DNA of 64,000 nt from Streptomyces sp. CA-278952 (GTDB lineage: Bacteria; Actinomycetota; Actinomycetes; Streptomycetales; Streptomycetaceae): positions 3,844,001 through 3,908,000 of the forward strand of contig NZ_CP112880.1 in NCBI RefSeq assembly GCF_028747205.1, read 5' to 3'. The notes below the pieces were generated by a model. That model saw only the letters and a program-made list of their open reading frames with translations. It made no database searches and was not told where the DNA came from. Positions 1 through 13,751 of this stretch are shown here, in pieces (the stretch's first letter is position 1; each line of letters opens with the position of its first letter). The translations under genes were made by a program, and so were the position numbers.

Positions 1-25
1 GGCCCTTGCCCGGTAGGCTTTCCGT

Positions 26-322: not shown

Positions 323-512
323 CGCCACCCTCGGCTACCTGCGCGCACCTCCGCGAGGGCGCCCGCGCACCCCAGCCGGGCTCCGCACTCCACCCGGGCT
401 CCGCACCCCACCGAAGCCCAATTCGAGCCTTTCGGGTGTTTTCACGCTCATCCGGGTGCCATACGTTGATCATCTTGTACGCATGAACACAGGGTCGCAT
501 TACGCTGCCTCC

Positions 513-1139: not shown

Positions 1140-1339
1140 ACCCCGTCACACACGCACACGCACGCTCCTGCTGAACGCGCACACGCTTTCGCGCCCCGCC
1201 CCGGCGCCGTACGGATACGTACGACGCCGGGACGGGGCGCGAGAGCGTGGAAGGGCCCTGACCGGACCTTGCCGTCCGGACCTATCCGGACTCCGAACCT
1301 GTTCGGGCGTCTTGGACGACCCACTCGGCGGCGTCCCAA

Positions 1340-1399
1340 CCTATGCGGCCCCAACCTATTCGGCCGTGGCCTATTCGGCCGTGGCCTATTCGGCCGTTC
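1340..1399. repeat. 15-bp tandem repeat across the upp stop codon
   Basis: Four head-to-tail copies of a 15-bp unit (CCTATTCGGCCGTGG in copies two and three; the first and last are degenerate) start at 1340, 1355, 1370 and 1385. The last copy contains the upp stop codon (complement of 1386-1388) and its final codons, so repeat expansion has occurred directly downstream of the coding end. It looks like slippage, not a functional element. Confidence 0.85.
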
Positions 1400-2021
1400 C
1401 GTACATCCGGTCGCCCGCGTCCCCGAGGCCCGGCACGATGTAGCCGTTCTCGTTGAGCCGCTCGTCGACGGAGGCGGTGACGACGGTGACCGGGGTCCCG
1501 GCCAGCTCGCGCTCCATCACCTCGACGCCCTCGGGCGCCGCGAGGAGGACGACGGCGGTGACGTCGTCGGCCCCGCGCTTGATCAGCTCGCGGATGGCCG
1601 CGACGAGGGTGCCGCCGGTGGCCAGCATCGGGTCCAGGACGTAGACCTGGCGACCGGAGAGGTCCTCGGGCATCCGGGTCGCGTACGTCTCCGCCTGGAG
1701 CGTCTCCTCGTTGCGGATCATGCCGAGGAAGCCCACTTCGGCGGTCGGCAGCAGCCGCACCATGCCGTCCAGCATGCCCAGACCGGCCCGCAGGATCGGG
1801 ACGACCAGGGGCCGGGGGTGCGAGAGCTTCACCCCGGTCGTGGGCGTCACCGGGGTCTCGATGTCGACCATCTCGGTGCGCACATCCCTGGTGGCCTCGT
1901 AGGCGAGAAGGGTGACCAGCTCGTCGGCGAGCCGCCGGAAGGTCGGGGAATCGGTGCGCTTGTCGCGCAGCGTGGTGAGTTTGTGCGCCACCAGCGGGTG
2001 GTCGACGACGTGGATCCGCAT
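1386..2021 (-). CDS. upp: Uracil phosphoribosyltransferase
   Basis: 211 residues, the normal length for the family. It catalyses uracil + PRPP to UMP + PPi in cytosolic pyrimidine salvage. The type I phosphoribosyltransferase PRPP-binding loop is visible at about residues 128-139 ([11 protein letters not shown]), and the uracil-binding segment near the C-terminus at 194-204 ([11 protein letters not shown]). The N-terminus [20 protein letters not shown] is typical. ATG 2021 is the natural start. The gene is transcribed convergently to the LytR_C gene and divergently from the small basic protein at 2124. Confidence 0.97.
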
Positions 2022-2123
2022 GTGTCAACAGTAACCGCGCCGCCCGGCACTCTGCGCTGGCATCAACCACCTGTTCGGGGGGAAGGTGGGGGCATACGGA
2101 CCCAGCACTGGGGTGGTGTGTCG

Positions 2124-2366
2124 ATGGTGGACGGGGAACTGCGGCGCGACCCGGCCTCGCGCGGGCCGCGCGACGGGCGCGACGCCGAGGGCGCGGCCAA
2201 GGACGTCGAGGACGCGCAGGAGAGTGACGCCGCCCGCCGCCGTCGACGCGCCCAGTTCCTCCGTGAGCTTCACGAGGCCAAGCAGCTGCGCGACCGCGTG
2301 CAGCCGCGCCGGGCCCGTGCGGCCCGTATGCGGCAACAGATGCGGATGCGCACGTTCCGTTGGTGA
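2124..2366 (+). CDS. Small basic conserved actinobacterial protein
   Basis: 80 residues from ATG 2124 (a GTG two codons upstream, at 2118, is an alternative). An acidic and mixed N-terminal half is followed by a strongly basic, probably alpha-helical half with RRRRAQFLRELHEAKQLRDR and the C-terminus RMRQQMRMRTFRW, which I recall as conserved among Streptomyces upp-tadA intervals. A nucleic-acid or ribosome contact is plausible from the charge, but no domain is recognisable. The long ORF upstream in the same frame (back to 1269) is the shadow of upp and is not coding. Confidence 0.65.
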   Translation: MVDGELRRDPASRGPRDGRDAEGAAKDVEDAQESDAARRRRRAQFLRELHEAKQLRDRVQPRRARAARMRQQMRMRTFRW

Positions 2367-2595
2367 ATCCTCCCCGTACCACTCCACGTACCACCGGCGC
2401 ACTCCCCCGCCGTTCGCCTCGTCAGGGCGACGGCCGACCAGGCACTCCTGGAACTGATGGCCGACGCAACGGCCGAAGAGGTCTCGCACGGCGCTTGTTT
2501 CTGCCACGATGCCGATTGGGCGGGGCGCAGGACGGACGGATCACCGTTCGCCCTCCCGCCGGACCGATTCGCCTATGACCAGTGGGAGAGTCACG

Positions 2596-3150
2596 GTGTA
2601 CTTCGCCGCACTGCTCGCGCGCACCGAAGACGGGTGGGAAGCGAGCGATACAGAGCTCGACGATGTGGAGACCCTGTCCGATCTGACAGATCTGGCCCGG
2701 GAGGCCTCGGTGGACGAGGACACGGTCCTGGTCTACATCGAGCAGGAGGACGCCTGGTTCGGCGTCGTCCGGGTGGACGGTGAGGAGGACCCCCGAATCT
2801 ACGTCTCGGACGCGTCCGCCGCCGCCCGCTCCTCGTACGGGGAGATCCTGCTCACCGACGAAGTGCTCGGCCGCGAACCAGGGGCCGAGGACGAGATCGC
2901 CGCCCTGGAGGAGCTCGTCGACCTCGACGGCACCGAGGACGGCGAACCGGAACGGCCCGCCCCCGCGGCCGTCGACCCGGACGAGGACGGCCCCGACCCG
3001 GACGCCGTACCGGCGGGACCGATCGGCGAGCTCGGGGTCCTCGCCGACCTCGGGATGTCCGAGAAGGAGCTGCTCACCCTGCAGACCGACGCACTCTCCG
3101 AGATCGCGGAGGCCGTGGGAGCGGCGGAGGTCCTGGAGTCGGTCCGCTAG
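2596..3150 (+). CDS. tRNA adenosine deaminase-associated protein
   Basis: 184 residues from GTG 2596 (VYFAALLARTEDGW), preceded by a GGGAGAG ribosome site; the ORF is open to an ATG at 2575. It is a very acidic protein (runs of D/E around residues 105-140) of the family always found directly upstream of tadA in Streptomyces, and that synteny is the source of the name. The biochemical role is unknown; an accessory role for TadA is inferred from position. No catalytic motif is visible. The stop is 97 bases before the tadA start, consistent with co-transcription. Confidence 0.8.
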   Translation: MYFAALLARTEDGWEASDTELDDVETLSDLTDLAREASVDEDTVLVYIEQEDAWFGVVRVDGEEDPRIYVSDASAAARSSYGEILLTDEVLGREPGAEDEIAALEELVDLDGTEDGEPERPAPAAVDPDEDGPDPDAVPAGPIGELGVLADLGMSEKELLTLQTDALSEIAEAVGAAEVLESVR

Positions 3151-3247
3151 CCGGCCCGTACACCCGCCCTTCCCTCACCACCTGTCCCGTCGTACATGCC
3201 CGTCCGTCCTGCCCGTCCGTCCTGATCCCGTCCGTTAGGGTCCGCAG

Positions 3248-3772
3248 GTGACCGCACGACCGCCGGACCCCTCACCCGAGCCCGCCCCGGATCCCGTACG
3301 CGTACCCGAGCCCGACCCCGTACGCGACCCCTGGCAGGCACCGATGCGCCGCGCCCTGGCCGAGGCCGGGCGGGCGGCGTCGGCCGGCGATGTGCCGGTC
3401 GGCGCCGTCGTCCTCGGCCCCGACGGCGCCGAGCTGGCCGCCGCCCACAACGAACGCGAGGCCACCGGCGACCCCACCGCGCACGCCGAGATCCTGGCCC
3501 TGCGCCGGGCGGCCGAGGCCCACGGCGAGTGGCGCCTGACCGGCTGCACGCTGGTGGTCACCCTGGAGCCCTGCACGATGTGCGCGGGCGCCCTGGTCCA
3601 GTCCCGCGTCGCCCGGGTCGTCTACGGCGCCCGCGACGAGAAGGCGGGCGCGGCCGGCTCCCTCTGGGACGTCGTCCGCGACCGCCGCCTCAACCACCGC
3701 CCGGAGGTGATCGGCGGCGTACTGGAGGACACGTGCGCCGAACAGCTGACGGCCTTCTTCCGGGCGCTCTGA
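3248..3772 (+). CDS. tadA: tRNA-specific adenosine deaminase TadA
   Basis: Zinc-dependent cytidine/deoxycytidylate deaminase fold. TadA converts A34 to inosine in the wobble position of tRNA-Arg(ACG); that substrate tRNA is itself encoded at 39868-39940. The catalytic HAE is at about residues 79-81 (PTAHAEILAL) and the second zinc motif PCTMC at 108-112. GTG 3248 gives 174 residues, with a 30-residue Pro/Asp-rich leader of repeated PEP/VRVPEPDPVRDP-like segments. ATG 3344 (MRRALAEAG) matches the usual start of the family and is a strong alternative, giving about 142 residues. Confidence 0.95.
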   Translation: MTARPPDPSPEPAPDPVRVPEPDPVRDPWQAPMRRALAEAGRAASAGDVPVGAVVLGPDGAELAAAHNEREATGDPTAHAEILALRRAAEAHGEWRLTGCTLVVTLEPCTMCAGALVQSRVARVVYGARDEKAGAAGSLWDVVRDRRLNHRPEVIGGVLEDTCAEQLTAFFRAL

Positions 3773-3883
3773 CCGGTACGGCCCCGCCCCCGACCAGGTG
3801 CGCCCCGGCTGCCTGACCAGGTAGGGCCCCGCTCCCGAGAACCGATTTCTGTCCACGCCCCGGGATGGTCTAAGCTCTCTCTC

Positions 3884-3971
3884 GGTAGCGTGTCCGAGCG
3901 GCCGAAGGAGCTCGCCTCGAAAGCGAGTGTGGCGTAACCCGTCACCGTGGGTTCAAATCCCACCGCTACCG
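3884..3971 (+). tRNA. tRNA-Ser(CGA)
   Basis: 88 nt. The acceptor stem GGTAGCG (3884-3890) pairs with CGCTACC (3964-3970), with discriminator G at 3971. The anticodon stem CTCGC/GCGAG encloses loop CTCGAAA with anticodon CGA at 3918-3920. A long variable arm and GTGGGTTCAAATCCCAC T-arm are typical of tRNA-Ser. No CCA is encoded. The accessory island begins immediately beyond it. Confidence 0.97.
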
Positions 3972-3982
3972 CTCTTACAAAG

Positions 3983-4020
3983 CCCCCTTGATCTGCGGAG
4001 ACGCGGTCAAGGGGGTTTTT
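3983..4020 (+). terminator. Rho-independent terminator of tRNA-Ser(CGA)
   Basis: The 9-bp stem CCCCCTTGA (3983-3991) / TCAAGGGGG (4007-4015) is followed by TTTTT (4016-4020). It lies 12 bases after the tRNA. Confidence 0.92.
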
Positions 4021-4022
4021 GC

Positions 4023-4313
4023 GTGCGATACGTGCTGCATGGCCGCAAGAACGCGAACGCGACTGGACAGCAGTCCTACTCCTGGTGGGGTAATGCGGGT
4101 GTGGCTGCCGAGTACGCACCTCTGGACGAGACCACCGCCAAGAAGTCCGTCACCATCCCCAGACCGCTTGACGGCGAGACCGAAGCCCGCACAGGCGCCC
4201 ACGCCCTCGCCTTGGCCAGAACCAGAGAGATCGTCGAGGCATACGAGGACGCACACGGCCCCTTCACTCCCGAGGAGATCGAGGAGGCCCGCCGAACATG
4301 GCACGGCGAGTAG
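4023..4313 (+). CDS. Hypothetical small protein of the accessory island
   Basis: About 96 residues if GTG 4023 is used. The C-terminal half (ARTREIVEAYEDAHG then FTPEEIEEARRTWHGE) is hydrophilic and helical with clear high-G+C codon bias. The N-terminal half (KNANATGQQSYSWWGNAG) has poor bias and may not be translated. GTG 4023 has no good ribosome site and falls directly after the tRNA terminator, so this may be the 3' remnant of a gene cut by the insertion. No family is recognised; the short C-terminal helix is antitoxin-like only in general character. Confidence 0.4.
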   Translation: MRYVLHGRKNANATGQQSYSWWGNAGVAAEYAPLDETTAKKSVTIPRPLDGETEARTGAHALALARTREIVEAYEDAHGPFTPEEIEEARRTWHGE

Positions 4314-4729
4314 CCCCGGCGTTCCCCCGCGCCCCTCCTCGTCCTTGACGCGCAGCGACTTTCCTCCCGGCCGACCAGGACCGCAGGATGACGCTGATTC
4401 TCAAGGTCGCCGAAGCCGAGGGGTACGCGGCCTCCATCTCTACGGTCAGCGTCGCCGGAGTCCGCTGCACCGGACCATGCCACGAACCACCTGCGCCGAC
4501 TCCGTCCTCGCCCTCGCCCGGCGCCGCGTCAACGTCTTCTGGGCCATGATCCGCGACCACGCCCCCTTCCAGACCGCCCCAGCCGCTGGTGCCCAGGACG
4601 GCATCTCTGCGGCCGCGGCACCGGCTCCGTCCGGCCCGGGGAGGAACGGTCTGAACAGCTCCTCCTTGGATCTCGTCGTGCAGACGAACACCCCCGTCTG
4701 CTGTCCGACCGCCTTGGTAGAACCTCTTC
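4314..4729. other. Gene-poor stretch with transposase debris
   Basis: No complete gene is supported. Reading frames on both strands are short and interrupted. The only recognisable coding debris is the IS110-like C-terminal fragment at 4477-4580. A short ATG frame at 4388 (MTLILKVAEAEGYAAS) runs into random sequence. The stretch looks like eroded mobile DNA at the tRNA-proximal edge of the island. Confidence 0.5.
4477..4580 (+). pseudogene. IS110-family transposase C-terminal fragment
   Basis: The frame beginning at ATG 4477 contains VLALARRRVNVFWAMIRD, very close to the conserved C-terminal end of IS110/IS116/IS902 transposases (ALARRRVNVLWAMLRD-like). None of the upstream DEDD or serine-containing domains is present, so only about 30 residues of the transposase survive. 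Recognition is from memory of the family motif over a short stretch. Confidence 0.55.
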
Positions 4730-5140
4730 ATGACCTTTCGATTCACCGCCCGCGCCGCCGGAGCCGAGGTCGATCCCGACGGCTACTTCACCGAAGCCGG
4801 CCTGGCGGAGGCCGAGGACGGCAGCGGCTTCATTCTGTCGTTCATGTCGGGCGAAGAAGATCCCGACGACCAGGAGGTCGCCCTGGGAATGGACACACAC
4901 TGCCTGGTCACGGCAGGGCAGGGGACGGCCTATGGCTGTGTGCGCGAAGCCGTCCTGCAGGGCAATGTCCTCCGCGTCGTGCTGGACCCCGAGGCACTGG
5001 AGAGCCTCCGGCTGGAGGACAGCGAAATCGAGGCCGTCATCGAGGCACCGCCGCACGACGTGGTCCGGTTCCGGGACATCCTCGCCCAGGTGCTCGCCTA
5101 TGGGAGGGCGGACGCCTTGCCCACCCGAGTAGCGGTCTGA
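4730..5140 (+). CDS. Imm10-family immunity protein, orphan
   Basis: 136 residues from ATG 4730. The pattern is an acidic N-terminal beta region (FRFTARAAGAEVDPDGYF), then a central YGCVREAVLQGNVLRVVLDPEALESLRL, then a helical tail (VVRFRDILAQVL), which matches Imm10 immunity proteins of polymorphic toxin systems. Imm10 proteins bind and neutralise a cognate C-terminal toxin domain inside the producing cell. No Rhs, WXG or other polymorphic toxin is visible nearby, so this is an orphan immunity gene, a common state after toxin turnover. Flanking DNA is mobile-element debris, consistent with horizontal arrival. Confidence 0.7.
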   Translation: MTFRFTARAAGAEVDPDGYFTEAGLAEAEDGSGFILSFMSGEEDPDDQEVALGMDTHCLVTAGQGTAYGCVREAVLQGNVLRVVLDPEALESLRLEDSEIEAVIEAPPHDVVRFRDILAQVLAYGRADALPTRVAV

Positions 5141-5378
5141 TGCGAGGAGTGGAGCCAGCCCGCGGTTGACGAGCGGCATGGGGAAGTTGCGTACTCGCGT
5201 GCGTACGCAGCTCCTCCTGGTCCCCGCGCACGCGGGGCTGTCCTCAAGACCGACTGCCGGGCGTGCCGCTCATCGTCCTGTTGCTCCGCATTTTGCGCGG
5301 CTGACACGATCCGCGTCTCAGTCGCCGAGTCGGCGCGTAGACAACAAACAGCGGGCTGCACAGACGACCTGCCGAGGG

Positions 5379-6482
5379 TTATGTCCTGCTGGGCCGGATG
5401 ACCTCGGCGGGTTCGCGCAGCCATACCTGCTGGCCGCGGTCGGTCACGGTCAGCCCGAACTGCTCGGAGTTGGGCCGCCCCACCGACTCGTACTCCCACC
5501 AGACCTGCTCGATCTCCTCCCACAGGAACCCGGGCCCGTACTGCCACACCTCCTCCCCCGAGGCAGCCGTCGCAGCGCCTCCGTCCTCCCGGGTCACCCA
5601 GACCCGCGCCCCGTCGACGGTCTCCTGGTGGATGAGCCGCACGCCGGGCAGCCGGGCCCCCGCATACAGGGCGAATCCGAGATCGAGGAGCCGGGCGGGG
5701 TCCAGACCAGCGGCACGGGCCCGACCCTTGCCCCGCACCTCGTAAAGGTCAGGCACGCGGTGGGCTCGCATCGGCATGTACGTGGCCCCGCCGCAGAACG
5801 GCCCCACCGCCGTGCCGTCATCCTGAACACGAAGCTGGACCAGCGCGCCGGACCAGAACTCCCGGGCCAGCGGGGCCACGACGACCCCACCGGGCCGGAC
5901 CTGCCGCAGCAGCGCGTGCGGGACGTACCGCAGGGCGCAGGTGGCGATCAGCCGATCCACCAACCCCAGACCGGGCCACGGCTGTTCACCGTCCCCGACC
6001 CGCAGGTGCGGCCGGTACCCGGCCTGCGCGAGGGCATCGGCCGCCTGCCGGGCCACGACCGGGTCGAGCTCGACGCTGTGGACGAGATCGTCGCCGAGCC
6101 GTTCGCAGAGCAGCGCGGAAACGTACCCGGTGCCGGTCCCGATCTCCAGCACACGCTGCCCGTCCTGGACATCGAGGAGCGTGAGCATCCGGGCAACCAT
6201 CGAGGGCATCGAGTTCGACGACGTAGCGACACCGGGCCCGTCCTCGGCCCCGTCGTCGAGCTGGGTGATCACCGGTTCGTCGCTGTTCACCAACGCCAGC
6301 CACGCATCCGCCCCCACGACCGGCTCACACCGATCGGGCAACTGCCGCCACACCCTCGCCGGAACGAACCGACTGCGCGGAACAGCCTCGAACACTCGCC
6401 GCCACCGGCCGGTGAGCAATCCACGATCGGCCAACCCCCGTACCAGGTCCGGGTAGGTGGGTGCCTGGTGTGCGGCGCTCAC
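5379..6482 (-). CDS. Protein-L-isoaspartate O-methyltransferase-like SAM methyltransferase
   Basis: 367 residues from GTG 6482. An N-terminal Rossmann methyltransferase domain carries SNSMPSM (about residues 89-95, equivalent to the PIMT Ser/Thr-x-Pro active-site loop) and SAM motif I VLEIGTGTGY (about 111-120). A C-terminal extension of about 150 residues follows, which housekeeping Pcm lacks. PIMT homologues with extra C-terminal domains modify ribosomal peptides in graspetide clusters (aspartimide formation). The GTG start overlaps the stop of the Pro-rich peptide gene in GTGA (6479-6482), so translation is coupled. The ORF is open upstream to 6548, but that start would overlap the peptide gene by 70 bases. 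The substrate is unknown; the neighbouring peptide is the obvious candidate (inference). Confidence 0.85.
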   Translation of the reverse strand: MSAAHQAPTYPDLVRGLADRGLLTGRWRRVFEAVPRSRFVPARVWRQLPDRCEPVVGADAWLALVNSDEPVITQLDDGAEDGPGVATSSNSMPSMVARMLTLLDVQDGQRVLEIGTGTGYVSALLCERLGDDLVHSVELDPVVARQAADALAQAGYRPHLRVGDGEQPWPGLGLVDRLIATCALRYVPHALLRQVRPGGVVVAPLAREFWSGALVQLRVQDDGTAVGPFCGGATYMPMRAHRVPDLYEVRGKGRARAAGLDPARLLDLGFALYAGARLPGVRLIHQETVDGARVWVTREDGGAATAASGEEVWQYGPGFLWEEIEQVWWEYESVGRPNSEQFGLTVTDRGQQVWLREPAEVIRPSRT

Positions 6483-6610
6483 GGCTGCGGGAAGCACTGA
6501 GGGCGGCTGCCGTCCGGAGTCGGCTTCGGCTCCTGGGGCGGTGTCCACGGCTTGTCCGACGGCGGCCCACCGTGCTTACCGGCATCGGCCCGTACGGGGG
6601 TGGTGATCAT
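6479..6610 (-). CDS. 43-residue Pro-rich peptide, candidate methyltransferase substrate
   Basis: Short gene below usual ORF cut-offs. ATG 6610 follows GGGGAGAAGG (about 4 bases spacing) and overlaps the stop of the upstream zinc-ribbon gene in ATGA; its TGA overlaps the methyltransferase GTG. The peptide has 12 prolines in 43 residues, one Cys (residue 39) and charged N-terminal residues. It begins MITTPVRADAGKHGG and ends GSRPQCFPQP. Aspartates at about 9, 19 and 33 are possible isoaspartate or methylation sites. No known RiPP leader is recognised and no ATP-grasp, LanB/LanC or radical SAM enzyme is adjacent, so a RiPP precursor role is only an inference from coupling and size. Confidence 0.7.
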   Translation of the reverse strand: MITTPVRADAGKHGGPPSDKPWTPPQEPKPTPDGSRPQCFPQP

Positions 6611-6831
6611 CGTCCTTCTCCCCTGATCGTTGCAACAGTTCGTTTGGCAGGGTCGTGAACCCCGTAGATCCCGTACGGCGGAAAGACATCGACCCGGCGC
6701 GGCCAGCCACCCTCGGCACACGCCCGGCACAACAGATCGCGGCCACCCTCAGTGCGCCGTACGGCAGTAACCGGATCGCGCCAACACGCCTCGCACATCC
6801 GCACATCCGCTGCCGAAAGGTTGGCGCTCAC
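6607..6831 (-). CDS. Small zinc-ribbon protein
   Basis: 74 residues from GTG 6831, which overlaps the stop of the preceding gene as GTGA. Two CxxC knuckles, CEAC at residues 13-16 and CRAC at 35-38, separated by 18 residues, form a treble-clef or zinc-ribbon pattern. The tail is basic-aromatic (VDVFPPYGIYGVHDPAKRT). The function is unknown; it may bind nucleic acid or act as an adaptor. It is the third gene of the coupled operon, and its stop overlaps the peptide start. Confidence 0.75.
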   Translation of the reverse strand: MSANLSAADVRMCEACWRDPVTAVRRTEGGRDLLCRACAEGGWPRRVDVFPPYGIYGVHDPAKRTVATIRGEGR

Positions 6832-7127
6832 GCCGCTTCCCGGAGAGCGGTGGCCGCCGCATGGCACGGACAGACACAGTCAGGCCGCAGGCAGATGGCG
6901 TGCACGTCGGCCAGACCCGTCACCAAGGCGCTGCGGCAGACGACTCCGTACGGGCCGTCCGCCCCCGCACGCAGCCCACCCAGGTCGGCCACCGCGCCCT
7001 CGGCCACATCAGCGAAAGTGATCGGCTCACCACGCCACAACAGAGTCACCTCATGCTCCGGACAGTACGCACCGGTGTCGTCTTCGACCGGCAACTCGTG
7101 CGCCTCCCACTCTGCGTAGCACCTCAT
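6828..7127 (-). CDS. Cys/His-rich small protein of the methyltransferase operon
   Basis: 99 residues from ATG 7127, with GGGAGG about 10 bases upstream; the start overlaps the previous stop as ATGA. Seven cysteines (3, 22, 64, 79, 84, 86, 88) and several histidines are present, with the C-terminal cluster CLRPDCVCPCH at residues 79-89 and an N-terminal YCPEHE at 21-26, suggesting metal binding. The family is not named, though similar Cys-rich proteins accompany XRE regulators in Streptomyces. The role is unknown. Confidence 0.72.
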   Translation of the reverse strand: MRCYAEWEAHELPVEDDTGAYCPEHEVTLLWRGEPITFADVAEGAVADLGGLRAGADGPYGVVCRSALVTGLADVHAICLRPDCVCPCHAAATALREAA

Positions 7128-7333
7128 GTGCTTCGGACCTCCCGCCAGGCACGACCAAGGTGGACAGCGGTCGGACAGGAGGCTCCGGCACGGCAGGTGG
7201 GGCAACACTGGGTGTGGCCGAGCCAGATCTTGTACGCGGTGTCGCCGCCCTCGCACCGACTGCTTCTTCCGGAGCTTGCCCCGACATGTGGCCAGGCGAT
7301 GCGCCGTCCCTCAACCCGCACGGGAATAAGCAT
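7124..7333 (-). CDS. Cys-rich small protein, first gene of the coupled operon
   Basis: 69 residues from ATG 7333, preceded by GAGGAG. The core DTAYKIWLGHTQCCPTCRAG (residues 31-50) and SCPTAVHLGRAWREVR form a recurrent Streptomyces pattern with CCxxC plus a downstream Cys, probably a small zinc-binding fold. It is the promoter-proximal member of the five-gene chain. A dyad lies directly upstream of its ribosome site. No function has been assigned that I can name. Confidence 0.75.
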   Translation of the reverse strand: MLIPVRVEGRRIAWPHVGASSGRSSRCEGGDTAYKIWLGHTQCCPTCRAGASCPTAVHLGRAWREVRST

Positions 7334-7346
7334 TCCGTCTCCTCAA

Positions 7347-7371
7347 CTACCCGTCTGGTACGGACGGGTAG
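7347..7371. promoter_or_regulatory. Dyad operator candidate upstream of the coupled operon
   Basis: Perfect 9-bp arms CTACCCGTC (7347-7355) and GACGGGTAG (7363-7371) with a 7-bp spacer, ending 14 bases upstream of the ATG at 7333 and just ahead of its GAGGAG. The position fits an operator for the XRE regulator encoded immediately upstream (inference). Confidence 0.6.
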
Positions 7372-7397
7372 AGCATGGAGGCAGGGGCCAGGCCTGA

Positions 7398-7416
7398 CTG
7401 CTACGGCTTGTAGCAG
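7398..7416. promoter_or_regulatory. Second dyad between XRE gene and operon
   Basis: CTGCTAC / GTAGCAG arms of 7 bp with a 5-base loop, 12 bases past the XRE stop. It could be a short attenuator or terminator of the XRE gene, or a second operator. No T-run follows, so a strong intrinsic terminator is unlikely. Confidence 0.4.
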
Positions 7417-7427
7417 CAAGGCGTGGT

Positions 7428-8612
7428 TCAGACCGCTCCGACCCAGTGGGCGAAGTGCGTCAGTCTTTCGCAGTCGGAGCGATGGAAGCGGCGAAGGTTT
7501 CGGGCGACCTCGCGCGCCCAAGGGTGCTCGCGCGTGTGCTGGGGTGCCGCAGCACGCGCCATCCGGAGGCTGGTGAAGGCCTCTACGGGGCGGCCTGCCC
7601 AATCCTGAGCCCTGGCAAGTTCGATGTAGAACCCGCTGCGGCGTTCGGCCGGCAGATCGATGCCCGGTGCCCATGCGGCAGCGGCGCGGAGAGCCCGGTC
7701 GGCGTGGTCAGGTCCGAGGCTGACCGCGACGGACACTTCGTGGATGCGCACACTTTCAGGCCCGAAGGCCGTGCCCAGGTAGCGGTCCTCTCGGCCGACT
7801 TGTTTGCCTAGCTGTCGGGCATGGGTCAGGTGAGTGTCGGCCGCCCCTACGTTCTGGGCGCGGCTCGCGATCACTGCGGCCCTCATGTGGAGTGCTCCGC
7901 GAGCGGCTGCCTGCGTGCGCCCGTCCGGTGGCGGGGCGGCCTCGATGGCCTGCTCCAGCGCTACCAGGCCGGCTGCGTGAGCGCGGGCGGCGAAGAACGT
8001 CTCGGCGCGAACGTACGAGGCGGTCGCCTGGACGAGAGGGTCCGCAGCACGGTCGGCTGCCCAGCGCATCAGGTCGATGAGGCGCGCGGAGAGGTCGTGT
8101 GCCCCGTGCTTGTAGGCGACGGCATCGGCGGTTCGAGCAGCGGAGGCCAGCATCCGCGCGGCATCCTGGTGTTCGGCACCGGGCGCAGTATGGACGTACC
8201 GAATCGCATCGGTCAGCAGACCAGGGATGACGGTAGCGATCCGGCCGTACTGGGCGGCGAGACGCCAGCCCACCGCCGTGATGATCCCATCGGCCAGTTC
8301 TTCCGGCCCACGCGCCGGTGGGCCCAGGGCCAGGTCGTAACCAGCGATCGCTTCCGACAGGGCAGGTAGCGCCCGATGGACACGTCGCTCCGTGCCGACG
8401 TGATCAGTGCGCAGACGCGTGACGTCCACCTCAAGGGCGTCCGCGATCGCTTCGAGCACCTCGTCGCTGGGTCGGCGTGCACCTCGCTCAACGGCGCGAA
8501 CCATGGCGTAGGACACATGGGAGGCCGTCGCAAGTTCGGTTTGGGTGTACCGGTGTGCACGGCGGCAGGCGGCGATGCGCCTGCCGATCTCGTGCGGGCT
8601 TTCGGAAGACAC
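7428..8612 (-). CDS. XRE-family transcriptional regulator with TPR-like C-terminal domain
   Basis: 394 residues. An N-terminal Cro/C1 helix-turn-helix at about residues 8-62 (RRIAACRRAHRYTQTELATA then SYAMVRAVERGARRPSDEVL) is followed by about 300 residues of Ala-rich helical repeats (for example ADPLVQATASYVRAETFFAA, TQAAARGALHMRAAVIASRA). This is the architecture of the large Streptomyces XRE family whose C-terminal helical array may sense a peptide or small ligand. It lies 94 bases upstream of, and on the same strand as, the five-gene coupled operon and is probably its regulator. No DUF397 partner is present, which separates it from the WhiJ-type pairs. Confidence 0.88.
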   Translation of the reverse strand: MSSESPHEIGRRIAACRRAHRYTQTELATASHVSYAMVRAVERGARRPSDEVLEAIADALEVDVTRLRTDHVGTERRVHRALPALSEAIAGYDLALGPPARGPEELADGIITAVGWRLAAQYGRIATVIPGLLTDAIRYVHTAPGAEHQDAARMLASAARTADAVAYKHGAHDLSARLIDLMRWAADRAADPLVQATASYVRAETFFAARAHAAGLVALEQAIEAAPPPDGRTQAAARGALHMRAAVIASRAQNVGAADTHLTHARQLGKQVGREDRYLGTAFGPESVRIHEVSVAVSLGPDHADRALRAAAAWAPGIDLPAERRSGFYIELARAQDWAGRPVEAFTSLRMARAAAPQHTREHPWAREVARNLRRFHRSDCERLTHFAHWVGAV

Positions 8613-8656
8613 CCACTGACCGTACTCGCGCGATGACGTTGCGGAACCTGATTCTT

Positions 8657-9295
8657 CTACTTCTCGGCGATCGCGATGAGGTCTGTGAGCGACTGGATCA
8701 CCCAGTCGGCAGTCGCGTGCACCTGGTCGTCGGCGCCCCAGAGGTTCCCCCAGGGGCCGCGGCGGATGTGTGCGGTGCGAAGCCCGGCCCTGGCTGCGGG
8801 GAACGTGTCGTTCGCGGGGTGATCACCGACGTACACGGTGTCTATCGCGGGGACGCCGGACGCCTCCAGAACCTTTGCGAAGAACTCCGGCGAAGGCTTG
8901 GCGCAGCCCCACTCCTCGGAGGTTGCGACGAGATCGGCGGGCAGGTCGAGCGCCCGGAGCAACTCACCCGCGCGCACGGTCTGGTTGCCTGCGACGACGA
9001 CGCGCATCCCGAGTTGGCGTAGCTTCGCAAGCGTGGGTCGGACGTCTTCGTACAGGTCGGACTCATCAAGGTGCTCACCTCGTCCGGCTGCCTCGCGGGC
9101 CTCGTATTCGGCCGGGATGTCGATGCCCGGCTTCACCAGCTTCAGCGCTTCGGAATTGTCGAGCCGCTGGGCGGTCACGGCGCCGACAAGGGCGGACAGA
9201 GTATGTCTGGGGGTGCCTAGCCAGTCGGCCCAGGAACCCCAGTAGCGGTCGTCGCGGACGAGAGTCTCGCCTATGTCGAACACGAACGTCTTCAC
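8657..9295 (-). CDS. HAD-superfamily hydrolase
   Basis: 212 residues from GTG 9295. Motif I is FDIGETLV (about residues 5-12), motif II is around VVVAGNQT, a conserved Lys lies in CAKPSPEFF and motif IV is VGDHPANDTFPA, in the order of a HAD phosphatase with a C1-type cap. The second motif-I position is Gly-Glu (DIGET) in place of the classic DxD, as in many HAD-like proteins; phosphatase activity is likely but the substrate is unknown. It sits 44 bases upstream of the XRE gene on the same strand and could be its leading operon partner. Confidence 0.82.
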   Translation of the reverse strand: MKTFVFDIGETLVRDDRYWGSWADWLGTPRHTLSALVGAVTAQRLDNSEALKLVKPGIDIPAEYEAREAAGRGEHLDESDLYEDVRPTLAKLRQLGMRVVVAGNQTVRAGELLRALDLPADLVATSEEWGCAKPSPEFFAKVLEASGVPAIDTVYVGDHPANDTFPAARAGLRTAHIRRGPWGNLWGADDQVHATADWVIQSLTDLIAIAEK

Positions 9296-9523
9296 ATGTC
9301 GAGCCTAGGGGCGACAGGCAGGCATCGCGACATCCACTCGCCCACGGGCCAGTACTCCGTGGCACGATGCCCCCGGTCGCCCGAGACCATACGGAAATCC
9401 TGGTGCCGGTGGCCGAGGGGAACTGAGGACGGGCAGGGATCGCGGCGGCGCACCAGACACAGCCTCACAACTCCGGATCAGCGCAGGCAGATCCGCCTCG
9501 CCGAGGCGTGAGAGGAGAGGGTC

Positions 9524-10136
9524 GTGGCTGACGATCTGTCCGCAGTGGGCCGCTTCCTGTACGAGGCGGGCACGCTCAAGCAGACGCGGCGTACCGGCTG
9601 GTGGATGGCCGGGGTCCGTGATCCCGAGAGCGTTGCCGAGCACTCGTGGCGTACGGCGCTGATCGCCACATCCCCGCGAACCTGAGCGCGCGGCACCCGC
9701 GCGCGCCGTATACCTCGCCGTCCGGCACGAGAGACGGGAGACCGGGACCGGGGACGTGCACCACCCCGGGAAGAGGTACGCATCCGCCGGCGACCCGCAG
9801 GAAGCCACCGTCGACCAGACGGCCGGTATGCCCAAGGTACTGGCCTCGGCAGTGCGCGAAATAGTCGTGGAGTACGAGGCGCAGAAGTCGCCGGAGGCGG
9901 TCTGCGCCCGGGACGCGGACGAGCTGGAGTGCATGCTCCAGGGGATCGAATACAAGGCCCAGGGCTACGAGAACGCCCGGCGCTGGATCGACAACAGTCG
10001 AGTCCGCCTCGTCACCGAGACCGCCCACCGCCTGGCCGACGAACTTCTGGCGCAGGGGGGCCTTGATTGGCTGCGTAGCGCTCTTGGCGGGGGTAACGGG
10101 GAGGCCTCCCTCCGAAGCTCGGGTCCCGAACCCTGA
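9524..10136 (+). pseudogene. HD-domain hydrolase (YfbR/HDDC2-like), frameshifted
   Basis: GTG 9524 preceded by GAGAGGAGAGG opens a frame reading VADDLSAVGRFLYEAGTLKQ, then GWWMAGVRDPESVAEHSWRT, the canonical N-terminus of HD-domain 5'-deoxynucleotidase-like proteins including the first metal His (AEHSWRT). It stops at about 9684. The rest of the domain (DVHHPGKRYAS, EAVCARDADELECMLQGIEY, AQGYENARRWID) continues in the +1-shifted frame to 10136. The middle region, with the HD metal pair, is disturbed by a small deletion. The gene is almost certainly inactive. The original enzyme would dephosphorylate nucleoside monophosphates. Confidence 0.75.
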
Positions 10137-10255
10137 GCCTCGGGCTTCGGGCTTCGGGACGGTCGCGTCACTCTTCCGGGGGTACGTGAATGAGGCCCCG
10201 GCCCGAAGCTCGGGTGCCGGGACTCGGGCTTCGGGATGCGGGACCCGGGATTCGA
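10113..10255. repeat. Imperfect CGAAGCTCGGG / CGGGCTTCGGG repeats
   Basis: Several interspersed direct and inverted copies of CCGAAGCTCGGG and CGGGCTTCGGGA fill the end of the HD pseudogene and the following spacer, with the two main blocks at about 10113-10165 and 10200-10250. They can fold into multiple hairpins. With 10256-10468, this is the spacer before the winged-helix gene; apart from the GTCACG motifs I see nothing else in it. Confidence 0.65.
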
Positions 10256-10320
10256 GCGCCTTCCCTAACCGGTAGGTAGAAGAAGGGGTTTGGGGAAACC
10301 TCCCCTACCTCCCCGCCCCC

Positions 10321-10372
10321 GTCACGGTCAGCAAGTATGACTAATCGTGACAGCTTGCGGCACAGTGTCACG
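10321..10372. promoter_or_regulatory. Three GTCACG motifs upstream of winged-helix gene
   Basis: GTCACG occurs at 10321-10326 and 10367-10372 on the plus strand and as CGTGAC at 10346-10351, giving one inverted pair (10346-10372) and one more distal copy. The spacing of 25 and 21 bases is near two helical turns. Possible operator for the downstream gene; the regulator is unknown. Confidence 0.35.
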
Positions 10373-10468
10373 ACTGCTTACGGTGCGGGAACCAAACGAC
10401 CCCGACGCGGTGGTTGCACACCAGGCCGGGGTCTCACCACGAGATCGATAACCCAGAAAGCCGATCCC

Positions 10469-11581
10469 ATGGCTACCCAGCACACTAGCTCCGCCCTGCC
10501 CGCTCCCGCACGCTCCGCCGCGTACCCGATGGCCAAGCCCGGCTACGGCAAACGCTCCGCACCGGACCAACAGGCCCGTACGCGCCACGACTTCGCTCAC
10601 CTGCCTACCCGCGAGCGTTACGTCGCCGGGTTCATCGACCACCTCCCCGAGGGTGCCGCGATGAGCGTGAAGACCCTGGCCAAACAGCTCCCGCTCTACG
10701 GCCAGCAGGCCGTCTCCACGTCCCTGACCGACCTCTCCGTCGCCGGCCACCTGCGGCGCGTCCGATGCCCCGTCGGCGCGGGCGACGAAACGCGCTGGGT
10801 CTTCCGCACCTTCTGGTCGCGCACGGCCCGGGACAACGAGTGGTGGAACGCCTTCCTCGCCACCGAGCAGGCCGCCCTGGCCGCAGCCCCCGTACCGGAG
10901 GCGCCCGCCCTCGACACGGCACCGCCGCCACCGTGGGCCCCGGCCGAGGAACCGCCGCCTCCGCCCGCTCCGGAGCGCCCCGGTACCGATCAGGTCCCCG
11001 AACCCACCGCCGTACCGCACGTACCGCACCAGCGCACCCGCACCCCGGCCCAGGCCCCGGACACCGAGCCCGAGCCGCCCGCGCCGCCCCCGGCCACCGT
11101 TCATGCGGCGCCCCACGCCGTCGAAGTCGGCCCCGCCTACCTCGCGCTGGCCCGTCTCGGTCGTGCCGATCACCGGCTCGCCCTCTCCGCCGACGACTGC
11201 GCCGCCCTGGAAGCACAGGCAGCGGAATGGCTCGCGCGAGGCGTGAGCGTCGACTACCTGACCAGTGCGCTGACGGCGGGGCTCCCCGCAAAGGTCGACT
11301 TCCCCGTCGGCCTCCTCCGCCGCCGCCTCACCGACAAGATGCCTCCCCGGCTGCCCACCGCCGGGAGCCCCTCGGCCGACGCCTCGGCCCCCGCCCGCCA
11401 CCTCCTCGTGGAATGCGCGGACTGCGGCCGTCCCGGGCCCCCGCAAGCCCTCCCCGACGGCCTCTGCCGACCTTGCCGTACAGCTCACTCCGGAGCCGCC
11501 GAGGACTCGCCCCGCCCCTCCCAGATCGCCGATGCCAAGGCGCACATGACCAACCTCCGCGACCTGCTCAGATCAGTCTGA
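10469..11581 (+). CDS. Winged-helix (MarR-like) DNA-binding protein with C-terminal zinc finger
   Basis: 370 residues from ATG 10469; the ORF is open to 10337 but the earlier residues look like spacer. A winged-helix segment at about residues 42-112 (PTRERYVAGFIDHLPEGAAM then LTDLSVAGHLRRVRC) is followed by a long Pro-rich linker (about 140-235), a helical region (about 240-300) and a CxxC...CxxC finger (CADCGRPGP, LCRPC) near residue 325. Proteins of this design are frequent in Streptomyces accessory regions. The target is unknown. It is the last gene of the island before the conserved sigF block. Confidence 0.75.
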   Translation: MATQHTSSALPAPARSAAYPMAKPGYGKRSAPDQQARTRHDFAHLPTRERYVAGFIDHLPEGAAMSVKTLAKQLPLYGQQAVSTSLTDLSVAGHLRRVRCPVGAGDETRWVFRTFWSRTARDNEWWNAFLATEQAALAAAPVPEAPALDTAPPPPWAPAEEPPPPPAPERPGTDQVPEPTAVPHVPHQRTRTPAQAPDTEPEPPAPPPATVHAAPHAVEVGPAYLALARLGRADHRLALSADDCAALEAQAAEWLARGVSVDYLTSALTAGLPAKVDFPVGLLRRRLTDKMPPRLPTAGSPSADASAPARHLLVECADCGRPGPPQALPDGLCRPCRTAHSGAAEDSPRPSQIADAKAHMTNLRDLLRSV

Positions 11582-11706
11582 GCGCGACGACCTCTTCTGA
11601 CGCGCCCCGCGCGTGCGGAGCTGCTCACGGCCAGCCGCACGGCATCGCTCGCGGTCATTCCCCGGTCGCCGCCCGTGGTACTGCGGCAGGCGCCCGGGAA
11701 CAGCAG

Positions 11707-11749
11707 AGCGCCCGGTCGCCGTACAGAGGATGTACGGCGACCGGGCGCT
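11707..11749. terminator. 18-bp perfect hairpin downstream of winged-helix gene
   Basis: Arms 11707-11724 (AGCGCCCGGTCGCCGTAC) and 11732-11749 pair perfectly around a 7-base loop. There is no T-run, as usual for actinobacterial terminators. It lies 125 bases past the stop at 11581. Confidence 0.7.
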
Positions 11750-11768
11750 CCGGTTCACGGTTCAGGTC

Positions 11769-11805
11769 GGGGGAAGCGGCATCGGGGGGACAAGCCGCTT
11801 CCCCC
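11769..11805. repeat. 12-bp inverted repeat
   Basis: GGGGGAAGCGGC (11769-11780) and GCCGCTTCCCCC (11794-11805) pair perfectly around a 13-base loop. It is the second of three hairpins in series. Confidence 0.7.
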
Positions 11806-11810
11806 GGTGA

Positions 11811-11884
11811 GAACAGGGCCTGCTGGTCCTCCGCCGCGGTCAGGGGGGATCGCGCGGCGGTGACCCCACAGAGAGGCCCTGTTC
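11811..11884. repeat. Long nested inverted repeat
   Basis: Outer arms GAACAGGGCCT (11811-11821) and AGGCCCTGTTC (11874-11884); inner arms CCGCCGC (11831-11837) and GCGGCGG (11854-11860). Together they form a 74-base two-tier stem. No function is evident. Confidence 0.7.
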
Positions 11885-12089
11885 CGGCCCTCCGGGTCCT
11901 GCCTGGTCCCTTTGGGCTCGGTGTCCATCCTGCCGGGCGGCGGGAGCCGTGTGGTCGGGCGAAAGGCCTCGATGGTGGGGACGTAGGTCCTTAAAAGACG
12001 CATCAGTGATCGAGAACAGCCACCGGATACGGCCATCCGTGCGGATAGAATCGCCCGATCGCACATGGGGTCGACGGGGAGGCAGGATT

Positions 12090-12254
12090 GTGGCCAAGGC
12101 TAAGACGATCATCATCTACCTAGTGGTGGTCTTCGTGCTGTACACGATCATCATGTCTCCGCAGCGGGCCGCCGAGCTGGTCCAGGTAGGGTTCGAAGGC
12201 ATTTCCACCGCCGCGCAGAGCGTCGGTGACTTCATGTCAGAGCTGGTGAAGTAG
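12090..12254 (+). CDS. Small single-pass membrane protein
   Basis: 54 residues from GTG 12090, preceded by GGGGAGGCAGG. After VAKAK comes a strongly hydrophobic helix (TIIIYLVVVFVLYTIIM, residues 6-22), then a short amphipathic tail ending FMSELVK. I recall it as conserved just upstream of the Dabb/sigF genes in Streptomyces. The function is unknown. The next gene starts 10 bases after the stop, so they are probably co-transcribed. A longer reading upstream (from 11949) has no ribosome site and crosses the likely promoter. Confidence 0.78.
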   Translation: MAKAKTIIIYLVVVFVLYTIIMSPQRAAELVQVGFEGISTAAQSVGDFMSELVK

Positions 12255-12264
12255 GAGTAGTGCG

Positions 12265-12558
12265 ATGATCCGCCACCTGGTCCTTTTCAAGCTGAACGAC
12301 GGCGTCGAGCGGGACGACCCGCGCGTCGTCGCCGGGGACCGGGCCTTCCGGGAGCTGGAGGGGCAGGTTCCGGAGCTGGAGTTCTGGGAGTGCGCCTGGA
12401 ACATCACCGACCGGCCGATCGCGTACGACTACGCCATCAACTCCGCCGTCGCCGACGAGGAAGCGCTCAAGCGGTACATCGAGCACCCCGCCCACCAGGC
12501 CGCCGCCGGACAGTGGCGGGAATTCGCCACTTGGGTGATCGCCGACTACCCCTTCTGA
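12265..12558 (+). CDS. Dabb-family (stress-responsive A/B barrel) protein
   Basis: 97 residues, the full length of a single Dabb (PF07876) ferredoxin-like domain. The signature opening MIRHLVLFKLNDGVERDD and the closing YIEHPAHQAAAGQWREFA are typical of the family, which forms dimeric beta-barrels. Members include stress-induced plant proteins and small cyclases or decarboxylases, but most bacterial ones, like this one, have no known substrate. A good intrinsic terminator follows. Confidence 0.9.
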   Translation: MIRHLVLFKLNDGVERDDPRVVAGDRAFRELEGQVPELEFWECAWNITDRPIAYDYAINSAVADEEALKRYIEHPAHQAAAGQWREFATWVIADYPF

Positions 12559-12592
12559 CGTCTCCCCGGCGCCGGTTCGGTCCGGTCCCTGC

Positions 12593-12620
12593 AACCCCTC
12601 GCCCGTCGGGCGGGGGGTTT
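12593..12620 (+). terminator. Intrinsic terminator after Dabb gene
   Basis: An AACCCCTCGCCCG / CGGGCGGGGGGTT hairpin with a minimal loop is followed by TTTCCTTGTT. Confidence 0.8.
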
Positions 12621-12681
12621 CCTTGTTCCGTTTAAACCCTTATGACCTCAACACGGCACTTTGAGGTGCTTGCACACAGTG

Positions 12682-12689
12682 GACATGTC
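12682..12689. promoter_or_regulatory. GACATGTC palindrome upstream of sigF
   Basis: A perfect 8-bp palindrome 68 bases upstream of the sigF start. The same core appears twice upstream of the paralogous sigN (13752-13786), suggesting a shared regulator. Confidence 0.4.
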
Positions 12690-12756
12690 TTGTGATGCTA
12701 TGACCGCTTTTGACGGATGAGTTGACCGTAGTTGACCGCGAAGGGGTGGCGTCACC

Positions 12757-13662
12757 GTGCCGGCCAGTACAGCGCCTCAAGTGCCTCCCCAGACCGTCCA
12801 GACCGCCCAGACCGCCCAGACCGTCCAGACCGTCCAGACCGTCCGGGCCGAGGACATCCAGACCGAGACCCCGGACCCCTCCGCCAGGCCCGCCAGGACC
12901 CGCGGCGCCGACACCAGGGCGCTCACCCAGGTCCTCTTCGGCCAGCTCAAGAACCTGGAGCCGGGCACTCCGGAGCACGGGCGGGTCCGGGCCGCCCTCA
13001 TCGAGGCGAACCTGCCCCTCGTGCGGTACGCCGCGGCGCGGTTCCGCAGCCGCAACGAACCGATGGAGGACGTCGTCCAGGTCGGCACCATCGGCCTGAT
13101 CAACGCCATCGACCGGTTCGACCCGGACCGCGGGGTCCAGTTCCCCACGTTCGCGATGCCTACCGTCGTCGGCGAGATCAAGCGGTACTTCCGCGACAAC
13201 GTGCGCACCGTCCACGTCCCCCGCCGGCTGCACGAACTGTGGGTCCAGGTCACCGGCGCCACCGAGGACCTGACGACCGCCCACGGGCGGTCCCCGACCA
13301 CCGCCGAGATCGCCGAGCGGCTGAAGATCTCCGAGGATGAAGTGCTCGCCTGCATCGAGGCGGGGCGTTCGTACCACGCCACCTCCCTGGAGGCCGCCCA
13401 GGAGGGCGACGGGCTGCCCGGACTCCTCGACCGCCTCGGTTACGAGGACCCCGCGCTCGCGGGTGTCGAACACCGCGATCTCGTCCGGCACCTCCTCGTC
13501 CAGCTCCCCGAGCGCGAGCAGCGCATCCTCCTCCTGCGCTACTACAGCAACTTGACCCAGTCTCAGATCAGCGCGGAGCTGGGCGTCTCCCAGATGCATG
13601 TGTCAAGGCTTCTCGCCAGAAGTTTCGCCCGACTGAGATCCGCAAACAGGATCGAGGCGTAA
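12757..13662 (+). CDS. sigF: RNA polymerase sigma factor SigF (SigB/SigF/SigG group)
   Basis: 301 residues from GTG 12757 ([12 protein letters not shown]), preceded by AAGGGGTGG. Region 2 ([20 protein letters not shown], then [19 protein letters not shown]), region 3 and region 4 ([20 protein letters not shown], then [12 protein letters not shown]) are all present. The N-terminus and sequence match Streptomyces sigma-F as I remember it. In S. coelicolor sigma-F acts late in sporulation (spore wall and pigment) and its gene depends on the early sporulation sigma WhiG. The N-terminal tail carries a tandem QTV/QTA repeat. Confidence 0.95.
12790..12843 (+). repeat. 9-bp coding tandem repeat in sigF N-terminus
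   Basis: Six copies of CAGACCG(T/C)C encode alternating Gln-Thr-Val/Ala in the unstructured N-terminal tail. Copy-number variation would keep the frame. Confidence 0.9.
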
Positions 13663-13751
13663 CCGGAACGGGTAGACCGTTCACAGAGCAGTTCTGACGG
13701 CATAAAAGGCCTACACCCCCTGTTTCCAGGGCGGATTCCCCGCTGACTTGT

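Follow-up and report, generated by a model that had tools for sequence, protein, structure and literature searches.

The locus lies within a 64,000-nucleotide stretch of Streptomyces sp. CA-278952 DNA (the window), and its ORFs were listed for window positions 1-14000. Five minus-strand ORFs (P1 to P5), chained by four 4-nt overlaps, were found downstream of an XRE-family regulator gene, all where the original prediction had placed them. The features of the locus are the following:

8657..9295, minus strand: optional HAD hydrolase upstream of the XRE gene (PF00702; in part of the related loci)
7428..8612, minus strand: P6 (P0006), XRE-family regulator, 394 aa (HTH_3, E 3.5e-11)
7124..7333, minus strand: P1 (P0001), Cys-rich GHTQCCPTCRAGASC protein, 69 aa (homologue search)
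7124-7127, minus strand: P1-P2 overlap, ATGA (ORF check)
6828..7127, minus strand: P2 (P0002), Cys/His-rich protein, 99 aa (conserved Cys/His)
6828-6831, minus strand: P2-P3 overlap, GTGA (ORF check)
6607..6831, minus strand: P3 (P0003), zinc-ribbon-like protein, CEACW..CxxC..RRVD.FPPYGIY, 74 aa (conserved Cys, model)
6607-6610, minus strand: P3-P4 overlap, ATGA (ORF check)
6479..6610, minus strand: P4 (P0004), predicted type I pamtide precursor, 43 aa (enzyme linkage, dN/dS 0.32)
6566..6577, minus strand: Lys-His-Gly-Gly (KH box) codons of P4 (K/R-H in 54/56 peptides)
6545..6556, minus strand: Asp19-Lys-Pro-Trp (DKPW) codons, subfamily signature and alternative Asp (D[KR]PW in 55/56 peptides)
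6509..6514, minus strand: Asp33-Gly34 codons of P4, proposed modification site (DG in 55/56 distinct family peptides)
6479-6482, minus strand: P4-P5 overlap, GTGA (ORF check)
5379..6482, minus strand: P5 (P0005), PIMT-like peptide aspartyl O-methyltransferase (PAMT), 367 aa, GTG start (PF01135, TIGR04188, model)

Conservation of the overlaps was scored in the window, 42 genome-contig loci, 3 further genome loci and 2 plasmids, some of them near-identical. The 4-nt P4-P5 overlap was present in 34/34 loci where tblastn found P4 (33 of normal length, 29 distinct among them). The P1-P2 and P2-P3 overlaps were conserved in 21/24 and 18/20 loci, the P3-P4 overlap in only 12/22, and in the wider P4-like set ATGA or GTGA stood at the peptide stop in only 24/38 scored loci. 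The expected conservation of the overlaps was thus observed for P4-P5 in close relatives and less elsewhere. With related loci and a number of near-copies in the set, these counts are not independent events. The median pairwise dN/dS was below 1 for all five genes (P1 0.40, P2 0.38, P3 0.33, P4 0.32, P5 0.22). The four overlaps suggest coupled translation, but the equimolar output that had been read from them is not implied.

The XRE gene does sit in front of the operon as predicted, but it is no fixed part of it. A close P6 homologue was found in 4/42 genome-contig loci (some cut short upstream) and in L108, and the front regulator is a variable component that differs among loci. No sigma-70-like promoter site was found in 5200-9700 by a scan limited to that type. 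An integration element was rejected, as no direct repeat of 18 nt or longer in 3800-13900 repeats the tRNA-Ser end. In a defence-model search with five proteins (P4 left out), the methyltransferase domain gave one match, mads_2, and the HTH part 13 matches. Two ligase-methyltransferase pairs (TIGR04187/TIGR04188) are encoded elsewhere in the same genome.

The family of P5 is given by its sequence and its predicted fold. P5 matched PF01135 with an E value of 8.8e-25, and its best NCBIfam model was TIGR04188 (graspetide methyltransferase), aligned over the full length (positions 1-363) at 308.7 bits, under the cut-off of 380. The extra C-terminal domain, previously put at 150 residues, spans about 115 in the predicted structure (254-367); residues 254-355 were confidently modelled, in the order beta-alpha-beta4-alpha followed by two strands. 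Both Foldseek and VIA returned the PIMT of Thermotoga maritima (1dl5) as top match over model range 9-357, at an rmsd of 6.7-7.8, so large that the match of the C-terminal domain is based on span and strand order and not on tight superposition. At the position of WxxxGxP, a motif reported near the C-terminus of imiditide enzymes which does not define the class, P5 reads YESVGRP; WxxxGxP itself is present in L085 and L086. In the enzyme tree, which leaves out four rows with short matches, the ATP-grasp-linked enzymes form a separate group.

P4 contains 12 Pro, 4 Gly, 3 Asp and one Cys. The Asp of Pro-Asp-Gly (Asp33) is, from its conservation, the likely modification site. DKPW is replaced by IKPW, GKPW or PYPW in four related loci (L064, L074, L077, L082), which lack the DKPW Asp and have DG; L069 carries PDD in place of PDG. 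The 55/56 count for DG comes from a biased sample, because the search favoured peptides that resemble P4, also in their DG; the 56 peptides count in L147, which is decayed, and L172, which stands alone. The C-terminus of P4 (QCFPQP) is neutral, and it is basic in L076 and L155. We rejected the idea that P1-P3 offset this neutral end, as L070 (judged to be the same place as L148) and L058 are neutral yet lack P1-P3. In L041 and L042 P4 is carried on plasmids, though a plasmid search with P4 gave no match, an uninformative result for which the low-complexity filter is perhaps responsible.

Of the 40 P4 matches in 392 genomes of the genus, 38 had the enzyme directly downstream. At two of the 40 loci, L164 and L173, the peptide was under the local threshold, yet the enzyme is present there with a DKPW pattern upstream of it. 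Conversely, a P4-like peptide was present in 44 of the 45 loci that encode the N-terminal part of the enzyme, a count that omits L084, L088 and L089 (enzyme fragments only). No peptide was found at the enzyme locus L079, and L172 has a P4-like ORF without the enzyme. Remote relatives of the enzyme keep a peptide beside them less regularly than these close ones: 33 such loci had an ATP-grasp gene (11), a DG peptide (14) or neither (8). The DG peptide was found in 14/22 remote loci including the window and one close relative and in 12/20 excluding both, counts in which DG may occur by chance in Gly/Asp-rich peptides. The co-occurrence expected for all five genes was therefore seen for the peptide with close enzyme relatives, but the zinc genes P1, P2 and P3 each adjoin only 10-13 of the 40 P4 matches.

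We conclude, with a probability of roughly 0.8, that P4 and P5 are the precursor and modifying enzyme of a type I pamtide (imiditide), with a chemistry predicted to be the published one. Type I pamtides arise when a PIMT-like enzyme that carries a C-terminal domain turns an Asp of the unmodified precursor into its methyl ester, giving an aspartimide (PMC10787088, PMC13001092). P5 is a PIMT-homologous methyltransferase (PF01135, TIGR04188) whose model carries a C-terminal extension of more than 100 aa like that of T. maritima PIMT. P4 is an adjacent Gly/Pro/Asp-rich precursor of the ~45-aa type, with a conserved Asp near Pro/Gly. Among the four flanking ORFs that were examined, domain and family profiles revealed no further primary RiPP enzyme, and genome-wide the nearest TIGR04187 ligases lie ~1.6 Mb or farther away. 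The charged C-terminus that most precursors of the class have, and that does not define it, is missing from P4. Against the assignment stand this neutral end, the TIGR04188 score under the cut-off, YESVGRP, the PDD of L069, the unpaired L172 and L079, the possible chance DG of the remote set, the large rmsd to 1dl5 and the lack of direct isoAsp confirmation even for the type I model SpaM. An unusual peptide and PIMT-like methyltransferase operon had been recognized correctly, as had its kinship with a RiPP tailoring enzyme. The absence of an ATP-grasp ligase had been taken to demand a different chemistry, but the same route from Asp through a methyl ester to aspartimide is published for type I pamtides, on unmodified linear peptides, and no new chemistry is required.

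The P4-P5 overlap would allow enzyme and substrate to be made together. By analogy with the two pamtide papers, from which the Asp methylation and aspartimide chemistry is carried over, P5 would bind SAM in its PIMT fold and methylate the Asp33 side chain of newly made linear P4. The methyl ester would then close on the following Gly as an aspartimide, and hydrolysis would give mostly isoaspartate; for SpaM, the type I model, isoAsp was not directly confirmed by its authors. P1-P3, small and probably metal-binding proteins, would have been added in the S. anulatus/griseus group; as a guess, they may work together with the precursor or act upon it, by holding or presenting P4. Relatives without P1-P3 indicate that these are dispensable for the basic reaction.

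P1-P3 are optional and lineage-specific, the methyltransferase being widespread without the zinc genes. In 18 P2 sequences C3, H10, C22, H25, C64, H76, C79, C84, C86, C88 and H89 are invariant or nearly so. It is an even bet that the three are hitchhikers, members of a modular set of small genes that are reshuffled in Streptomyces behind interchangeable regulators and play no role in modification. P1 (56 matches) and P3 (49 matches) each occur in 28/392 genomes, and most matches are remote from P4 (P1 46/56, P2 23/36, P3 39/49; 10 of the 56 P1 matches lie within 1.5 kb of a P4 match). The P4-P5 pair stands without all three genes in L058, L070 and L076, P1-P2-P3 without the pair in L116, and on the plasmid L177 a tail-less P3 follows P1 with no pair found nearby; the variable regulator in front also fits such shuffling. 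Against it stand the mostly conserved P1-P2 and P2-P3 overlaps, the dN/dS of 0.33-0.40 and two kinds of directly observed gene structure that are new in this analysis. Among the best 43 of the 49 P3 matches (the 6 weakest left out), P3 is stand-alone in 10/10 loci with the enzyme, and at enzyme-free loci it carries an in-frame KH-box/proline tail in 31/33, with K/R-H in those 31; a locus with masked letters is one of the two without a KH box. L177 is outside the 43, as is P0058, a P3 with a GRHG tail. In three loci (L032, L041, L042) P2 contributes its N-terminal half to an in-frame fusion with the precursor. A phage search with P3 gave no match at E 1e-5.

The P3 tails and P2-precursor fusions suggest, though they do not prove, a partnership between the Cys-rich proteins and the precursor, and they lend indirect backing to the earlier proposal of metal-binding chaperones or substrates. 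A zinc-scaffolded type I pamtide, in which these proteins are zinc-bound precursor partners and P3 and the P2 N-terminal half are detachable leader-like domains, is a tentative reading that we hold to be possible and rather doubtful. If true, the domains would be fused in some loci and split into overlapping genes in others, and the enzyme-free proteins with a KH-box/Pro tail would form a sister group of peptides not described so far. If the linked Cys-rich proteins hold or present the precursor, recognition and perhaps function would become open to experiment through them, much as partner proteins helped with some graspetides (PMC13097080). The biological role of pamtide modification is largely unknown according to PMC10787088 and PMC13001092. 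As to recognition, PMC13001092 ascribes the choice of one Asp in a linear peptide to charge contacts, and the last 5 residues of SpaA and last 10 of NmaA are required, yet the P4 C-terminus is neutral. With several copies in one genome, a genetic test would need their joint removal.

It is improbable that P3 (or P2) is itself the substrate, as the zinc-ribbon precursor with an Asp in its hairpin is in type II pamtides. The P3 model does place a beta-hairpin between two CxxC knuckles (local pLDDT about 80, whole model 61), and Asp32, after the hairpin turn, is conserved in 90% or more of 25 sequences. However, the P3 pattern is CEAC-(18)-CRAC, without the Gly pattern of CxxCxGxGDCxxCxGxG, a motif also absent from P4; the L031 paralogue has Glu at the Asp32 position, many enzyme loci lack P3, and it is P4 that is coupled directly to the enzyme. 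The PIMT fold and PCMT domain of P5 would suit an ordinary isoaspartate repair enzyme with P4 as a mere translated leader coupling translation, but the C-terminal domain, the protein-level conservation of P4 (dN/dS 0.32, fixed motifs) and three close copies in this genome make this highly unlikely. A graspetide cluster after loss of its ligase, suggested by TIGR04188 as top model, is the least credible reading given the separate tree group of ATP-grasp-linked enzymes and the ligase-free peptide-enzyme pairs that recur in many genomes.

The preferred assignment of P4 and P5 to the type I pamtides places them among more than 1,500 predicted pamtide clusters (a figure from the abstract of PMC10787088). 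Compared by their published descriptions, P4-P5 resembles SpaA/SpaM (Streptomyces sparsogenes) and NmaA/NmaM (Nonomuraea maritima): a Pro-rich precursor of short length is followed directly by a PIMT homologue that bears a C-terminal domain, and no further RiPP enzyme was found at the locus. It differs in the neutral P4 C-terminus, in YxxxGxP for WxxxGxP and in the DKPW and PDG signature, and the type I pamtides of the papers are two-gene clusters, whereas here Cys-rich genes lie upstream in addition. The main text of PMC10787088 uses "accessory" twice, neither time about type I partners, and lacks "fused"; that of PMC13001092 lacks "accessory" and "partner" and uses "fused" once, about lanthipeptides. 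No literature was found on the PIMT and zinc-ribbon combination or on WP_056708767. The closest solved structure, 1dl5, shares the C-terminal domain, is ~22% identical to P5 and has no reported RiPP role in the available part of its literature. The methyltransferase of the graspetide TgmA/TgmB/TgmC system (TIGR04187, TIGR04188) is homologous to P5, unlike which it has an adjacent ATP-grasp ligase, falls in a separate tree group and is described by a TIGR04188 cut-off that P5 does not reach. Type II pamtides, or cysimiditides (FcaA/FcaM), likewise combine a PIMT homologue with a zinc-ribbon protein in one operon, but in them the zinc ribbon serves as substrate and here it is a separate protein with a different Cys pattern. 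If the zinc-scaffold reading is true, the system would form a bridge from the linear pamtides of type I to the zinc-ribbon ones of type II.

The overlapping chain of five minus-strand genes behind an XRE gene, as first read from the DNA, was confirmed, each neighbouring pair along P1-P5 having 4 nt in common:

7124-7333, minus strand, P1, small Cys-rich protein
6828-7127, minus strand, P2, small Cys-rich protein
6607-6831, minus strand, P3, Cys-rich zinc-ribbon-like protein
6479-6610, minus strand, P4, Pro-rich peptide, predicted precursor
5379-6482, minus strand, P5, PIMT-like methyltransferase
7428-8612, P6, XRE regulator gene in front of P1-P5
8657-9295, HAD hydrolase gene, like P6 ahead of P1-P5

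P1-P5 is a real operon, conserved in part. The host genome is a single contig of 8.2 Mb, and its named close relatives are Streptomyces, a good number of which bear the name S. anulatus or that of a species in its group. Between a tRNA-Ser (3884-3972) and the operon lies an Imm10-like immunity protein (4730-5140, plus strand) scoring 28.5 bits, marginally below the Pfam cut-off of 28.6. The HD-domain (HD_3) gene at 9524-10136 (plus strand) is split into two ORFs in different frames and looks like a broken gene; its relative in locus L095 is full-length and open (198 aa).

A six-frame search with P4 (MITTPVRADAGKHGGPPSDKPWTPPQEPKPTPDGSRPQCFPQP) of 392 genomes of the genus, own genome included, gave 40 matches in 32 genomes. 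All were inspected and the enzyme was just downstream in 38, a count that takes in L164 and L173, and also L157 and L165, where the enzyme aligns only in part. The other two matches are L147, a decayed copy in the own genome, and L172 (G191), a solitary precursor-like ORF with DKPW and PDG motifs, adjoined by HD and HTH genes and without methyltransferase. Counting in reverse from the enzyme, 48 loci were found and 3 with only pieces were set aside; the peptide was directly upstream in 44 of the 45 scored, L079 being the sole locus where no peptide was found by the enzyme. Of the 40 peptide matches, 10 have P1 no more than 1.5 kb away, 13 have P2 at such a distance and 10 have P3.

Among the 44 upstream peptides, 37 carry D[KR]PW, 3 are of a KHR..DDG kind, and 4 have PDG with the Asp of DKPW replaced (IKPW in L074 and L077, GKPW in L082, PYPW in the shortened peptide of L064). 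The remote enzymes of L085, L086 and L087 stand behind another peptide kind, EGKHRSP.GDDGHQPNRPVPPPP..., which combines a KH box and DDG with a poly-proline tail. In 56 distinct peptides, D[KR]PW was present in 55, DG in 55 and K/R-H in 54; the L069 peptide has PDD for PDG, the Asp being retained. Synonymous changes predominate in P4 (dN/dS 0.32). Judging from these sequences, modification is more likely at the PDG Asp (codon 6512-6514) than at the other, since this residue is kept where the DKPW Asp is lost and remote loci retain DG without DKPW.

In the own genome, P4-P5 cassettes with an enzyme lie at three places (3.31, 3.85 and 4.87 Mb), and a fourth, decayed cassette at 3.37 Mb (L147, G000:C1:3369428) consists of the C-terminal half of the precursor and scraps of methyltransferase. 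A MarR-like gene is present in four close copies, one by each cassette, the decayed one included. The window copy (10337-11581, plus strand, 414 aa) matches MarR weakly and carries a Cys motif at its C-terminus, and two of the four copies contain a stop codon.

A TIGR04187 search of the own genome returned ATP-grasp ligases at two places (5495532 and 5657555), in both cases right next to a methyltransferase paralogue (~40% identical). Both are far from the window cassette at 3.85 Mb, which bears out the earlier statement that the operon lacks such a ligase. We checked 33 methyltransferase loci, taking the best one from each of 30 genomes (window included) and adding three further own paralogues; an ATP-grasp gene was upstream in 11. 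A short DG-containing ORF lay near the enzyme start in 14 of the other 22 (the L008 peptide being taken from a separate look at that locus) and was lacking in 8; leaving out the window and its close relative, the figure is 12 of 20. In a tree of 61 enzymes, all 12 ATP-grasp-linked enzymes and two others form one well-supported group. P5 is placed among enzymes with DKPW-PDG peptides, which occur in more than one place.

P1, P2 and P3 are optional beside P4-P5, and the majority of their matches are not near P4 matches. Across 42 named loci they accompany the closest enzymes; P3 was not found in several (L049, L053, L055, L069, L075), nor any of the three in L058, L070 and L076. The regulator varies as well: P6 is present in 4 of the 42, and 9 of the 40 peptide loci have a different HTH gene together with an HD one. 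L098-L101 (G019, G173) carry P1-P2 pairs without peptide or enzyme, adjoined in L098 and L101 by a DUF6879-like gene as well as an HTH regulator, both named by eye from sequence; G019 has eight P2 matches.

The enzyme is present at 10 of the 43 P3 loci examined; there, P3 ends within 20 residues past its FPP.GI motif (in one case directly after FPP) and lacks a KH box. In 31 of the 33 enzyme-free loci, P3 reads on in frame and reaches a K/R-H box after 11-36 residues (mostly 11-15), nearly always with a proline-rich tail, ending in PPV in 29. L116 and the plasmid locus L177, with tail-less P3 and no pair, argue against a strict pattern. P3 of S. bacillaris (P0058) has a GRHG tail. The C-terminal DG is not conserved in these tails, so they are hardly obvious substrates, and since the P3 tail and P4 are both of low complexity, their resemblance may be analogy only. 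In L032, L041 and L042, an in-frame fusion joins the N-terminal half of P2 to the precursor; RefSeq annotates this fusion in one S. anulatus plasmid (WP_056708767, 87 residues) and a shorter ORF of 44 residues in another. A third kind of joining is seen in P0129 of Streptomyces sp. NPDC058629, a 129-aa P2 homologue that ends with P3's C-terminal part (CPRRVDVFPPYGIYRLH). Fused P3/KH-box/Pro-tail genes accompany a P1 homologue in L092, L102, L103 and L106, in the first two also near GntR-like and glutamine-synthetase-like genes (likewise named by eye from sequence). Fusions of this sort often point to, without proving, joined proteins that work together.

Most likely, P4 and P5 would be translated in a coupled fashion, Asp33 of P4 would be methylated and an aspartimide would then form at Asp-Gly; its hydrolysis would, by analogy, give chiefly isoAsp. 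P1-P3 may hold the precursor, whose C-terminus is not basic. That tie is weak because neutral C-termini are also found without P1-P3, and the odds are roughly even that P1-P3 are hitchhikers.

The core of the operon, the P4-P5 pair predicted to form an aspartimide, is of an already known RiPP kind. Lee et al. (PMC10787088) describe more than 1,500 two-gene clusters of precursor and PAMT, named pamtides, and Zhu and Link (PMC13001092) review the same class as imiditides. Type I precursors have a length of about 45 aa and abound in Gly, Pro and Asp; a conserved Asp lies close to a Pro or Gly. With SpaA/SpaM, products shifted by +14 and -18 Da were seen, as was trapping by hydrazine, direct confirmation of isoAsp not being obtained for SpaM (PMC10787088). 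P4-P5 share the class features that could be checked, so the pair is filed, by sequence, as a predicted type I pamtide, with departures in the neutral precursor C-terminus and in the enzyme's YxxxGxP, which stands in place of WxxxGxP. No mention of linked or fused Cys-rich proteins was found in the passages of PMC10787088 and PMC13001092 on pamtides, and measured against these passages the novelty of the locus is its Cys-rich proteins, linked and fused.
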